From a virus: a stretch of DNA of 36,423 nt. The stretch is taken from IMG/VR virus record IMGVR_UViG_3300027770_000135, positions 1-36,423 of that record; one strand, 5' to 3'. The translations under genes and the position numbers were made by a program. The notes beneath the pieces were generated by a model that was not told the DNA's origin, did not search any database, and was given only the letters and a program-made list of their open reading frames with translations. Of the stretch, positions 26,742 through 32,241 are shown in pieces; position 1 is the stretch's first letter; the number at the start of each line of letters is the position of its first letter.

Positions 26742-26857
26742 AGTCAGGTGGCGGAATGGTAGACGCTAATTTTCAAAATGTGAGGTATAGATACTGGTTA
26801 AGTACACGCCGGGAACAGATACAAAATACCATACAGGTTCGAATCCTGTCCTGACTA
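26742..26857 (+). ncRNA. tRNA-Leu-like element 1 with oversized centre
   Basis: AGTCAGG/CCTGACT acceptor, TG, D arm GCGGAATGGTAGACGC and T arm ACAGG-TTCGAAT-CCTGT are all tRNA-Leu-like. The 65-nt centre is not: no 5-bp/7-nt anticodon arm forms, and a GGTAT/ATACC stem encloses 37 nt in the variable-arm position. 116 nt in total against about 85 for a normal Leu tRNA. Confidence 0.7.
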
Positions 26858-26891
26858 CTTTTTGGGGGATTGATTTTTTTTGAAGTATGGC

Positions 26892-26900
26892 TATATTTAT
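26892..26900 (+). promoter_or_regulatory. TATATTTAT box before a micro-ORF
   Basis: Plus-strand TATATTTAT, 17 nt before the ATG at 26918. Confidence 0.35.
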
Positions 26901-26917
26901 AGAAACAAAAGTACGTT

Positions 26918-27004
26918 ATGCTTTCACAAAAACTCTATATCAGTTTTAATCCGTCATGGTTCGATAGAACAACCATAGGATATGACTTTTACGGGTTTGT
27001 TTGA
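26918..27004 (+). CDS. Possible 28-aa peptide inside the tRNA array
   Basis: ATG at 26918 opens 28 codons (begins MLSQKLYISF, ends GYDFYGFV) before TGA, in the only clear non-RNA gap of unit 1. It has a TATATTTAT box upstream and an intrinsic terminator 33 nt downstream. The peptide looks protein-like (SFNPSWFDRTTIGYD). Alternatively the segment is untranslated leader: it also forms ATGGTT/AACCAT and ATATGTA/TACATAT hairpins. Confidence 0.35.
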   Translation: MLSQKLYISFNPSWFDRTTIGYDFYGFV

Positions 27005-27033
27005 TATGTACTCCTTACATATGAAAAAAAATT

Positions 27034-27062
27034 AAACCCGAAGAAATTCGGGTTTTTTTTTT
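27034..27062 (+). terminator. Intrinsic terminator of tRNA unit 1
   Basis: AAACCCGAA/TTCGGGTTT with a GAAA loop and a T10 run. An upstream GGGTTT at 26993-26998 could pair with the same AAACCC, giving an alternative fold. Confidence 0.85.
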
Positions 27063-27094
27063 CGTAAAAAGGATGAAACTAATAAAATCATTCG

Positions 27095-27102
27095 TACCTT
27101 TG
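27095..27102 (+). promoter_or_regulatory. Promoter of tRNA unit 2
   Basis: TACCTTTG matches TAnnTTTG; ATG replaces TTG at the -33 position with a 19-bp spacer. It directly follows the unit 1 terminator. Confidence 0.65.
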
Positions 27103-27138
27103 TAATGTTGATGGTTGAGAGATCAACAATCACAACTT

Positions 27139-27147
27139 GTTCTTTGA
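27139..27147 (+). promoter_or_regulatory. boxA-like antitermination leader, unit 2
   Basis: ACTTGTTCTTTGACATCTTGG region; GTTCTTTGA is identical to the unit 1 leader and flanks are similar (AAAAATT downstream in both). A stable hairpin (TTTTGA-GTC/GAC-TCAAAA) follows near 27170-27192. Confidence 0.55.
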
Positions 27148-27195
27148 CATCTTGGAAAAAATTGAAATGTTTTGAGTCGTGAGACTTCAAAATTT

Positions 27196-27325
27196 AGTCA
27201 GGTGGAGAATGGAGTCTCACCCACTACAGGGCGGCAAGGTAATGAGAGGGTCGGCTCAGTCCGATGAATGTAGAGTATTACTACCCCTAATGCTTGCAAT
27301 ACAGGTTCGAATCCTGTCCTGACGA
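27196..27325 (+). ncRNA. tRNA-Leu-like element 2
   Basis: Same acceptor (last pair broken: CCTGACG) and identical T arm as element 1. D arm altered (GGAGAATGGAGTC). GCAAG/CTTGC forms a 5-bp stem just before the T arm, enclosing about 60 nt with an inner TCGG/CCGA hairpin. No anticodon arm. Confidence 0.6.
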
Positions 27326-27344
27326 CAATTACAAAAACTAATAA

Positions 27345-27446
27345 TTTCTCCAACCAATGAAATATAGTGTAGTTATCATTGGACAAATACTTGAAATAGC
27401 ATTCAACGTTGATAGGGTGTGTATTAAGTTTTACACCTAGGAGAAG
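27345..27446 (+). ncRNA. Spacer RNA S2, four-way junction
   Basis: TTCTCC/GGAGAA (plus one T-G) encloses three hairpins: CCAATGA/TCATTGG, TTGAA/TTCAA and GGTGT/ACACC, a cloverleaf plan without tRNA consensus bases. It lies between element 2 and tRNA-Gln. Confidence 0.5.
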
Positions 27447-27450
27447 GAAC

Positions 27451-27521
27451 TGTCCCCTCGTCTAACGGCAGGACAGCAGACTTTGATTCTGCTTATCGAG
27501 GTTCGAATCCTTGGGGGACAA
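27451..27521 (+). tRNA. tRNA-Gln(TTG)
   Basis: Acceptor TGTCCCC/GGGGACA, anticodon arm GCAGA-CTTTGAT-TCTGC, T loop TTCGAAT, discriminator A. Confidence 0.95.
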
Positions 27522-27534
27522 CATAAAAAAATAT

Positions 27535-27630
27535 AGTCAGGTGGCGGAATGGTAGACGCATCGAAAGATAGGTACGGTATGGAGCCCGATTAAATAATCC
27601 TAATTACAGGTTCGAAACCTGTCCTGACTA
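27535..27630 (+). ncRNA. tRNA-Leu-like element 3
   Basis: AGTCAGG/CCTGACT, intact D arm GCGGAATGGTAGACGC, T arm ACAGG-TTCGAAA-CCTGT. The 46-nt centre folds as ATCG/CGAT or GATT/AATC but offers no anticodon arm. At 96 nt it is the shortest member. Confidence 0.65.
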
Positions 27631-27632
27631 CC

Positions 27633-27720
27633 AAAGAAACAAGTAAAACGCAAACGCACAGTCCCTTGATGCATCAGGTGAGGTGCACACTGTATACTGG
27701 ATGACCTCTGTTTCTTTTTT
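27633..27720 (+). ncRNA. Spacer RNA S3 closed by a 9-bp stem
   Basis: AAAGAAACA (27633-27641) pairs with TGTTTCTTT (27709-27717), then a T run. Inside, ACAGT/ACTGT and alternative GAGGT/ACCTC stems. Its ends are homologous to those of S7 (30311-30397). Confidence 0.55.
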
Positions 27721-27724
27721 AATC

Positions 27725-31136: not shown

Positions 31137-31141
31137 CTTTT

Positions 31142-31229
31142 GGAAGATTGGCTGAGTTGGTCTAAAGCGGCACCCTGCTAAGGTGTTAATTGGGAAACTG
31201 ATTCATTGGTTCGAATCCAATATCTTCCG
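31142..31229 (+). tRNA. tRNA-Ser(GCT)
   Basis: Acceptor GGAAGAT/ATCTTCC, anticodon arm CACC-CTGCTAA-GGTG, long variable arm, T loop TTCGAAT, discriminator G. Confidence 0.95.
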
Positions 31230-31235
31230 CACAAT

Positions 31236-31265
31236 TTGGAAATACAAAAAAAATTCGTATATTTG
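31236..31265 (+). promoter_or_regulatory. Possible internal promoter abutting tRNA-Asn
   Basis: TTG (31236-31238), 19 bp, TATATTTG (31258-31265): perfect host consensus. Its last G is base 1 of tRNA-Asn, so normal start-site spacing would begin transcription inside that tRNA. Confidence 0.5.
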
Positions 31266-31336
31266 TCTTGATAGCTCAGAGGTAGAGCAAGTGGCTGTTA
31301 ACCACTAGGTCATAGGTTCGAATCCTTTTCAGGACG
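31265..31336 (+). tRNA. tRNA-Asn(GTT)
   Basis: Acceptor GTCTTGA/TCAGGAC, anticodon loop CTGTTAA on GTGG/CCAC, T loop TTCGAAT, discriminator G. Confidence 0.95.
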
Positions 31337-31385
31337 CAAAAAAAATTTGAATATGTTACATAAAATGTAGTTATGATAAATTTTT

Positions 31386-31457
31386 GGTCTATTAGTGTAG
31401 TGATTAACACGCCTCACTGTCTATGAGGTAGCCTCGGTTTGAATCCGTGATAGACCG
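31386..31457 (+). tRNA. tRNA-Asp(GTC)
   Basis: Acceptor GGTCTAT/ATAGACC, anticodon arm CCTCA-CTGTCTA-TGAGG, T loop TTTGAAT (unusual second T), discriminator G. Confidence 0.93.
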
Positions 31458-31516
31458 CCAACCAACAATGAGTGTTGTGCAAGAGTACCCGATCTCTGAA
31501 GTCAAACAAAAGGGTT

Positions 31517-31626
31517 AGTCAGGTGGCGGAATGGTAGACGCAAAAACTGAAGGCGGATAAGTGATTTAAGAAGCATTATAAAAAAGCATGTCAAATCACA
31601 TACAGGTTCGAATCCTGTCCTGACTA
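31517..31626 (+). ncRNA. tRNA-Leu-like element 7
   Basis: Intact acceptor, D arm and T arm of the family. GTGATTT/AAATCAC (7 bp) precedes the T arm and encloses 25 nt. The remaining 19 nt cannot form an anticodon arm. 110 nt. Confidence 0.68.
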
Positions 31627-31627
31627 C

Positions 31628-31732
31628 AAAAGTATTAACCACCCGACTCATTAGGGTGAAGTGTTTCGTACGAAAACACTTGAATAAAGTGGGTGGCAAC
31701 CATAAGAACGCCTTAAACTCGTTAATACTTTT
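31628..31732 (+). ncRNA. Spacer RNA S8 closed by a 12-bp stem
   Basis: AAAAGTATTAAC (31628-31639) pairs perfectly with GTTAATACTTTT (31721-31732). Inside: CACCC/GGGTG, AAGTGTTT/AAACACTT, GGT-GGCA-ACC and AACG/CGTT. Starts 2 nt after element 7 and ends 6 nt before tRNA-fMet; contains TAGGGTGAAG as in S7. Confidence 0.65.
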
Positions 31733-31738
31733 TTATAT

Positions 31739-31814
31739 TGCGGGGTAGAGCAGTTGGTAGTTCGTCGGGCTCATAACCCGAAGGTCGCAGGTTCAAATCC
31801 TGCCCCCGCAACCA
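31739..31814 (+). tRNA. Initiator tRNA-fMet(CAT), CCA encoded
   Basis: Anticodon arm TCGGG-CTCATAA-CCCGA with the three G-C pairs of initiators, T arm GCAGG-TTCAAAT-CCTGC, acceptor TGCGGGG/CCCCGCA, then A and an encoded CCA. Position 1 is T (pairs with A72) instead of the usual mismatched C1. Confidence 0.93.
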
Positions 31815-31816
31815 AA

Positions 31817-31890
31817 GGGCTGTCATGTACCAAGGTTGGCGATCTTCACTTGCAATGAAGATGTGGTGAGTTCGATTCTCACATGGTCCA
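31817..31890 (+). tRNA. tRNA-Ala(TGC)
   Basis: Anticodon arm CTTCA-CTTGCAA-TGAAG, T arm GTGAG-TTCGATT-CTCAC, acceptor GGGCTGT/ATGGTCC with several G-T pairs, discriminator A. Confidence 0.9.
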
Positions 31891-31899
31891 CAAAAAAAT

Positions 31900-31970
31900 G
31901 CCTCTATAGTTAAACGGTATAACAATTGATTTGTAATCAATTATTCTTGGTTCGATTCCGAGTGGGGGCT
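31900..31970 (+). tRNA. tRNA-Thr(TGT)
   Basis: Acceptor GCCTCTA/TGGGGGC, anticodon arm ATTGA-TTTGTAA-TCAAT, T loop TTCGATT, discriminator T. Confidence 0.93.
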
Positions 31971-31972
31971 CT

Positions 31973-32013
31973 GATGCAATAGTAACTCAGGTACTAGGGT
32001 TAGTTGCAACATC
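31973..32013 (+). other. Short spacer with paired ends (S9)
   Basis: GATG-CAA at the start pairs with TTG-(CAA)-CATC at the end; an inner AACT/AGTT follows. Fills the gap between tRNA-Thr and tRNA-Gly. Confidence 0.35.
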
Positions 32014-32085
32014 GCGAATATCGTATAGTGGTTATTACTCCATCCTTCCAAGTTGGAGACGACAGTTCGATTCTGTCTATTCGCT
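32014..32085 (+). tRNA. tRNA-Gly(TCC)
   Basis: Acceptor GCGAATA/TATTCGC, anticodon loop CTTCCAA, T arm GACAG-TTCGATT-CTGTC, discriminator T. Confidence 0.93.
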
Positions 32086-32129
32086 CAGGGTTAGTCAAGA
32101 CCCCCTCGAATCTCAGAGTCGGGAAAAAT

Positions 32130-32241
32130 AGTCAGGTGGCGGAAAGGTAGACGCTAACAAAGTGAGAAGTCAGCTTGAATGTAGAAATACATTTATGTAC
32201 CCAAAGATGATTTCATACAGGTTCAAATCCTGTCCTGACTA
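32130..32241 (+). ncRNA. tRNA-Leu-like element 8
   Basis: Acceptor and D arm (GCGGAAAGGTAGACGC) intact, T loop TTCAAAT. GAAGTCA/TGATTTC precedes the T arm and encloses a TGTA-GAAA-TACA hairpin. Only 11 nt separate the D arm from that stem, too few for an anticodon arm. 112 nt. Confidence 0.66.

Follow-up and report, generated by a model that had tools for sequence, protein, structure and literature searches.

Putative RNA cassettes in phage tRNA arrays: a tRNA-Leu-type shell with exchangeable structured centres

Here we consider eight RNAs encoded in the tRNA array of a virus record of 36,423 bases (IMGVR_UViG_3300027770_000135, positions 1 to 36,423; 'the window' below); they share the outer parts of a tRNA-Leu and differ in their centres. 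Loci mined for comparison carry L-numbers; they come from five viral-contig scans and one genome scan, plus the window. The nearest known natural object, by its place and its T arm, is rnaC (species 1 RNA) of phage T4, a stable RNA in a phage tRNA array with a GIY-YIG gene (segB); close to its 3′-end it has CCGGGTTCGAATCCCGG, the T arm of a tRNA. The T4 RNA, however, has only a partial acceptor and no family of swapped centres; it is conserved (of 718 records matched, 698 hold most of it, 651 at ≥95% identity).

In tmRNA the anticodon arm of a tRNA shell is replaced by other RNA; the tmRNA model matched none of the shell copies scanned (window and 18 loci), and the true tmRNA of L374 stands separately from them. 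YrlA, a bacterial Y RNA, joins a tRNA mimic to another RNA domain, which is one fixed Ro60-partner domain; the Rfam YrlA model matched none of the window's copies. Engineered tRNA scaffolds carry foreign RNA in the anticodon position for stable recombinant expression; these are artificial, whereas the shell RNAs are natural, widespread and exchanged.

RNA anti-CRISPRs (Racrs) are small phage RNAs that mimic CRISPR repeats against host immunity, and their abstract describes no tRNA shell (PMC10651486); Rfam CRISPR-repeat families had no match in the window's array. In SegB amplification (PMC13096335), a homing endonuclease, a tRNA array, recombination and counter-defence likewise meet in one locus; there the dosage of an ordinary tRNA gene rises, while the shell RNAs exchange different centres. 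GOLLD and ROOL resemble the shell RNAs as phage RNAs of unknown function near tRNA islands; they are large cage-forming RNAs without a tRNA shell (PMC12286853). GOLLD is present in L374 and L328; the former is one phage stretch with six shell copies along with GOLLD, tmRNA and freshwater-1 RNAs. At the level of titles and abstracts, we found no description of shell RNAs in openly licensed literature. YrlA, tmRNA, engineered tRNA scaffolds, Racrs and SegB-amplified tRNA loci each have a single trait in common with the shell RNAs; none of them joins a common tRNA shell to a large set of exchanged structured centres.

All eight copies of the window lie on the + strand, at the positions reported in a first-pass annotation made from the sequence alone (Table 1). 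Allowing one mismatch, a search for their 24-nt 3′-end gives eight matches, against none in 100 dinucleotide shuffles (chance expectation 0); a 22-nt shell pattern occurs eight times forward and never in reverse. The acceptor AGTCAGG/CCTGACT and the T arm ACAGG-TTCGAAT-CCTGT, described as common to the family, are seen in all eight, save that the acceptor of copy 2 has its final letter changed (CCTGACG). The D arm that had been assigned to six copies is exact in three of them (copies 1, 3 and 7, GCGGAATGGTAGACGC) and merely similar in copies 4, 6 and 8; in copies 2 and 5 D arms of different sequence retain the pairing. The claim that no copy forms a 5-bp anticodon arm with a 7-nt loop agrees with ARAGORN, whose list for the window has 23 ordinary tRNAs and none of the eight. 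The Rfam tRNA model scored three of the eight above threshold with default filters and five with lax filters, as tRNAs with long inserts. Folding of single copies is striking for copies 7 and 8 only (z-scores −2.2 and −4.0; −0.1 to −1.6 for the remaining six), so the stem of 5–7 bp before the T arm, presented earlier as a usual trait, is not general. Stronger evidence for structure comes from sequence comparison, as given below.

Three viral-contig scans for the shell end (22 nt; two with other 3′ flanks) gave at least 120 stretches each, and the whole mined set holds at least 652 scaffold records in at least 325 loci. Sixteen of the 652 records, longer than 220 nt (mostly two merged copies), were excluded from the counts of distinct copies, clusters and swaps. 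Outside one densely sampled site there were at least 599 records with at least 538 distinct sequences and at least 364 centre clusters, 266 of them singletons; in this BLAST clustering distant families are over-split and a few are chained via common D-loop inserts. As the loci were chosen by pattern, exact conservation of the shell is partly a selection effect; some loci are pieces of one contig or near-duplicates.

The shell has the features of a tRNA fold. Among 539 distinct copies, T8 was present in 513, A73 in 498, and the 5′ AGTCAGG in 483; 431 had TTCGAAT as their T loop. In 432 of the 539 (103 after shuffling) we recognised a D arm with GG, and the D stems covary (GCG/CGC, GTG/CAC, GCT/AGC); after it, an arm resembling an anticodon arm (5 bp, 7-nt loop) followed in only 6 of these 432 copies. 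The Levitt pair, 15–48, stabilises the tRNA elbow. Among the 317 cluster representatives that had both T8 and A14, A15 was accompanied by T48 in 272 of 294 cases and G15 by C48 in 10 of 11 (0.7 expected); this covariation was reached by none of 5000 permutations, and neighbouring control columns were flat. That the pair is kept across unrelated centres indicates selection of the shell as a folded RNA, beyond a role as DNA homology arm. As to membership among the tRNAs-Leu, the shell has the acceptor, the D and T arms and the contacts of the elbow, whereas all but the six copies just mentioned, of the 432, lack an anticodon arm; the prevalence of A73 and of A15–T48 we take, from identity rules, to be compatible with charging by leucyl-tRNA synthetase. 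The copies are 65–210 nt long (median 102); with this length, no anticodon-arm halves on inspection of the window copies and no Rfam intron match, the candidate of an intron-containing tRNA was rejected.

Compensatory changes in two of the three centre families tested mark these centres as structured RNA. The family of copy 6 (seven sequences) folds as a pseudoknot; both sides have changed in five of its pairs, and four of the five lie in the centre (shuffle mean 2.1; 1 of 500 shuffles equally high). Its covariation score is 0.153 versus 0.084 in shuffles (0 of 500). The family of copy 1 (four sequences, one of them in an AGCAAGG shell) has seven two-sided pairs, five in the centre and two in the acceptor, with a score of 0.413 versus 0.175 (0 of 500). 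Such shuffles can be exceeded through kinship; slid controls were far lower in both families. No centre of the window or of 18 loci matched an Rfam family above threshold. Some of the commonest 6-mers in centres (TCATAC, TAGACG, ACATAC) are where the centre meets the D or T arm; ACCACA is among other frequent ones (18 clusters, 4.8 expected).

Furthermore, a second insert was seen by inspection in the D loop of 19 of 552 copies (a script had flagged 26, of which seven were pattern artefacts: L018, L219, L354, L028, L031 and two in L055). The D-loop slot and the centre vary independently of each other: L086 and L355 have an insert but not a centre in common, as do L133 and L328, and the centre of L280 occurs in L077 with no D-loop insert.

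The centres are exchanged between phages. We compared 551 records with flanks of ≥150 nt, calling centres different below 70% identity (random mean 0.54). Both flanks were homologous in 208 pairs; the centre was different in 166 of these, the same in 40 and intermediate in two, and the flanks of different-centre pairs had a median identity of 91.7% (maximum 99.7%). One site dominates this count: it contributes 153 of the 208 pairs, and in 142 of the 153 the centres are different. The other sites together give 55 pairs, 24 of which differ in centre. More than one centre was found in 11 of 27 homologous site groups. Conversely, 176 pairs had the same centre with no alignable flank, nine of them within the window's close relatives, and the same centre was met twice within a locus in 3 of 666 pairs (centres <20 nt left out).

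Several of these events can be followed in the window. L219 aligns to it in blocks 93–100% identical; at copy 8 the centre (32154–32214) is replaced with both sides 98.6–98.8% identical, and at copy 6 it holds another centre between flanks 97.7% identical. Other centres also occupy the site of copy 2 in L219 and L043, where flanks are 99.5% and 99.3% identical. For each of the eight window centres there are relatives in other contigs; those of copy 8 are confined to L018 and L228, two loci with arrays akin to that of the window, and in L018 the copy stands at a different place in the array. The copy 4 centre is shared with a different phage group (L176–L178), and the copy 7 centre with another contig of a different phage group (L066). 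The centre family of copy 1 also occurs inside a different acceptor, AGCAAGG, in L215–L217. A block that starts at 29074, within copy 6's T arm, stands behind other copies in L018 and L228, so that a junction lies in the T arm. Every centre match sits in a tRNA-like shell: five matches flagged by a script as outside one were all explained (three have AGCAAGG as their shell, one is truncated where its contig ends, and L123 has a slightly altered acceptor).

The dominant site lies upstream of a conserved gene, and its relatives were collected through this gene and not through the shell. Of 80 relatives, 50 had no shell and 30 had a copy, with eleven different centres; L066, from outside the 80, carries the window's copy 7 centre there. 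A second copy stands in tandem in six of the 30 occupied loci. This second slot is a tRNA-Ile(UAU)-like core with the shell acceptor in five of the six (L142, L148, L180, L187, L189); in L214 the core is replaced by a payload. Normal anticodon arms at the same positions in relatives had been named as the finding that would overturn the scaffold interpretation; relatives show the same centre, another centre or nothing, the tRNA-Ile(UAU)-like slot being the exception. Both the tRNA scaffold with variable RNA inserts and the recombining reservoir proposed in the first-pass annotation are supported by the tRNA fold, the Levitt pair and the swapped and shared centres. Fold, structured payload families, swapping, modularity and presence or absence of copies are properties that the sequences themselves show.

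We lean, if only slightly, towards a cassette system in which a tRNA-type shell, serving processing and exchange, displays swappable effector RNAs. Processing by RNase P and RNase Z and addition of CCA are established tRNA biology; the host's RNase P, RNase Z and CCA-adding enzyme would excise the RNA from the phage transcript, and the shell would protect it. The fixed shell would consist of a tRNA-Leu-type acceptor stem, a D arm and a T arm docking as a tRNA elbow; the payload would be an independently folding domain of ∼20 to >100 nt that replaces the anticodon arm and the variable loop, with a second payload sometimes in the D loop. As the shell is common to many phages, we propose that its ends act as shared homology arms: co-infecting phages would exchange payloads via recombination in D-arm and T-arm sequences, and the exchange may be initiated by homing endonucleases of the Seg type, which cut in tRNA genes. 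Diversifying selection may act on the payloads as effector RNAs, whose most likely task would be to bind host defence factors or to serve as decoys for them. Counter-defence would be the likeliest use of the centres; in being optional, fast-changing, shared by different phages and mostly non-redundant within one, the locus resembles counter-defence loci. Expression, processing, a trigger by endonucleases and effector function are what we infer for the shell RNAs on this account. A more far-reaching version is a standardised phage RNA display, with a common tRNA shell, hundreds of structured effector RNAs and two slots exchangeable independently of each other, traded among unrelated phages as a counter-immunity arsenal; this we put forward tentatively, as a possibility falling somewhat short of probable.

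As to the trigger of exchange, SegB of T6 cuts inside tRNA genes, the motif RAWTSGAAC being present in 23 of 83 cut sites; it assists amplification of anti-defence loci and has homologues in Bacteroidota phages (PMC13096335). The window's array has an endonuclease open reading frame (ORF) inside it, likely a free-standing homing endonuclease; it is present in L219 and absent between aligned blocks of L018 and L228. GTTCSAWTY, the complement of the SegB motif, occurs in 460 of 539 T loops. A gene family with a SegE-matching representative was found in 10 of 127 loci, and a GIY-YIG match in 13 of 20 chosen scaffold-bearing records and in 12 of 14 control genomes. With regard to transcription, TATATTTGC stands directly before the shell in 29 of the 30 occupied alleles of the 80-relative site.

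A number of observations weigh against the cassette system. Of 218 shell copies submitted alone to ARAGORN, 48 were called as tRNAs, the anticodon being undetermined for 11 of the 48, so a minority of copies may be real tRNAs. In the copy 6 family further pair types were not above shuffles (98 of 500), and the third centre family had one changed pair and a score of 0.071 against 0.050 in the slid control. No swap was seen at 16 of the 27 homologous sites. The motif TAnnTTTG was found within 45 nt upstream in 20 of 215 records versus 19 of 617 control windows; given this rarity, most copies are probably co-transcribed with neighbours, if expressed. The nearest flanking ORFs were on the same strand in 281 cases and on the opposite strand in 86. 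GTTCGAATC is a general tRNA T-loop sequence, which makes the match to the endonuclease motif unspecific and merely suggestive, and 7 of the 20 scaffold-bearing records had no GIY-YIG match. The search for host targets covered two payloads and found no target: the copy 4 centre gave only partial matches of 17–31 nt in 12 of 395 Bacteroidia genomes (best E 0.005), and a payload model, R1, gave 0 of 295, a result uninformative alone as it had no positive control. On 77 loci the same model recovered eight family members and no other match at E 0.1.

Among the other explanations, we consider a neutral or selfish reservoir unlikely, if the least so: passenger payloads would persist via easily recombining shared ends and repeated conversion of the region by homing endonucleases, with no effector function. 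Exchange is indeed plain, endonuclease genes lie in or near some arrays, and at one site 50 of 80 relatives have no copy; however, two families keep their payload folds by compensatory changes and the elbow is kept across unrelated payloads, neither of which passengers should require, and the sets within loci are mostly non-redundant (3 of 666 pairs alike). Slightly less probable still is that the tRNA shell is a vehicle for antisense or guide RNAs aimed at transcripts of the host or of rival phages, a task to which hypervariable centres in a fixed carrier would be suited. A complementary run of ≥14 nt in the own locus was found for 5 of 277 centres versus 0–3 in ten shuffled sets, a search of both strands in which duplicated copies count too; the mean longest own-locus match was 10.1 nt versus 10.0 nt in shuffles, and the copy 6 payload is a compact pseudoknot. 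The antisense carriers suggested in the first-pass annotation thus show no clear excess against the phage's own neighbourhood. Another of its suggestions, decoys for anticodon nucleases, is not supported because so few copies have anything like an anticodon arm. We think it improbable that the shell is a sponge for defences gripping the acceptor stem, T arm and CCA tail (e.g. Cas12a3), with the centre as filler; the conserved parts are just the acceptor, T arm and elbow, but filler should not make conserved, covarying and exchanged families, and the ordinary phage tRNAs of the array would suffice.

Y-RNA-like partners of a phage Ro60 (TROVE) protein we regard as very improbable. YrlA Y RNAs mimic tRNA, and TROVE domains were present in 4 of the 20 scaffold-bearing records versus 1 of 14 control genomes; on the other hand, 16 of the 20 lacked TROVE (some are fragments), the AGTCAGG shell was not found in TROVE loci of 3.2–3.5 kb, and in the window the YrlA model matched, below threshold, only across two ordinary tRNA genes. 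Separately, L391 has a TROVE/Ro60-type gene at 787–2328 (such genes are also in L392–L396) with a T-arm-like element just upstream (726–749), perhaps part of a Y RNA. Hardly credible to us are decayed tRNA genes or errors of metagenome assembly. The data are almost wholly metagenome contigs and the repeats are short and alike; yet the same payload is at the same site across different sample numbers (L175/L181/L197/L201/L203; L176–L178), compensatory changes occur, and near-identical relatives differ inside the shell. Decay and assembly error are thus refuted in the main.

As to the spread of the shell, a search of the bacterial genome collection for the exact 25-nt 3′-end gave no more than six stretches, of which four belong to Bacteroidota bins. 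The hosts are probably Bacteroidota, to judge from these bins and from a promoter motif at one site, which we take to be of Bacteroidota type. The 20 chosen records (some near-duplicates) had 1–13 shell ends each with two mismatches allowed, on one strand per record; the reversed pattern was found in none of them. In cultured phages the exact 27-nt end, which was expected to rank high, was absent among the best 60 of 706 records, and two further queries found no shell copy; in plasmids there were only matches of D-arm length among the 20 listed of 52. Non-canonical tRNA-like RNAs with a paired acceptor had another 3′ acceptor in 35 of 181 cases, some of them one letter off.

In these viruses of environmental bacteria, the shell RNAs give the impression of an RNA display system of natural origin, used in a contest that moves fast and in which the other side is probably the host's defences. 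If so, they would constitute a large pool of unclassified functional RNAs (at least 364 centre clusters), in viruses evolving by trade of RNA modules through a common plug, and would offer a concrete handle on a long-standing question, namely what large tRNA arrays and unusual stable RNAs like T4 rnaC are for in phages. They would also be natural, evolution-tested tRNA-scaffolded RNAs and, should the payloads be counter-defence factors, a searchable list of RNA inhibitors.

Table 1. Coordinates of features in the tRNA array of the window
Feature	Position	Strand	Remarks
tRNA array, 23 ordinary tRNA genes interspersed with scaffold RNAs	26421..32422	+	ARAGORN
Scaffold RNA copy 1	26742..26857	+	Centre family also in L086/L218
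Scaffold RNA copy 2	27196..27325	+	Centre relatives in L289, L123
Scaffold RNA copy 3	27535..27630	+	Centre also in L072, L228; other acceptor in L215–L217
Scaffold RNA copy 4	27725..27844	+	68 nt of centre 100% identical in L176–L178
Scaffold RNA copy 5	28186..28295	+	Different D arm; centre family in L049, L316, L318, L328, L335, L351
tRNA-like RNA, acceptor CCATTCT/AGAATGG	28676..28780	+	ARAGORN silent; also in L018, L228
Scaffold RNA copy 6	28995..29097	+	Centre with pseudoknotted fold and compensatory changes (seven sequences)
Copy 6 T arm and downstream flank	29074..29209	+	Behind other scaffold copies in L018, L228
ORF of 239 aa, PHROG endonuclease, inside array	29344..30063	+	No Pfam match
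Scaffold RNA copy 7	31517..31626	+	Centre 98% identical in L066
Scaffold RNA copy 8	32130..32241	+	Otherwise only in L228 and L018 (elsewhere in array)

The tRNA-like RNA with acceptor CCATTCT/AGAATGG is the same kind of object as the eight copies, outside the AGTCAGG shell. At 27873–27980 two consecutive T-arm-like elements, GAGAGGTTCGAAACTCTC and ATGGTTCGAATCCAT, surround a GACTA/TAGTC pairing; by eye, this looks to be a further or rearranged tRNA-like RNA.

Elsewhere in the window, a gene for an MjaI-like restriction endonuclease lies at 33050–33793 (− strand; PF09568, 23.7 bits, cut-off 22.7); a DNA methyltransferase gene at 21118–22131 (+ strand) is not adjacent to it. Upstream of the endonuclease ORF of the array, at 29205–29271, there is a sub-threshold match to a hepatitis delta virus-like ribozyme (RF02682, 33.3 bits versus 44, E 0.002).

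The spacer from the tRNA-Leu to copy 1 (26542–26728) has long closing ends, AATATTGGA/TCCAATATT, and is absent from L219, where the adjoining blocks align at 99–100%; it looks like an optional structured RNA. Four more spacers, 28296–28434, 28588–28676, 30310–30402 and 31627–31733, have closing stems of ≥8 bp (folding z-scores −2.4, −2.1, −2.0 and −3.7), and two further ones, 28512–28586 and 27632–27722, have z-scores of −1.7 and −0.9. The stem-closed spacers between tRNA genes are possibly additional RNA genes of the array.

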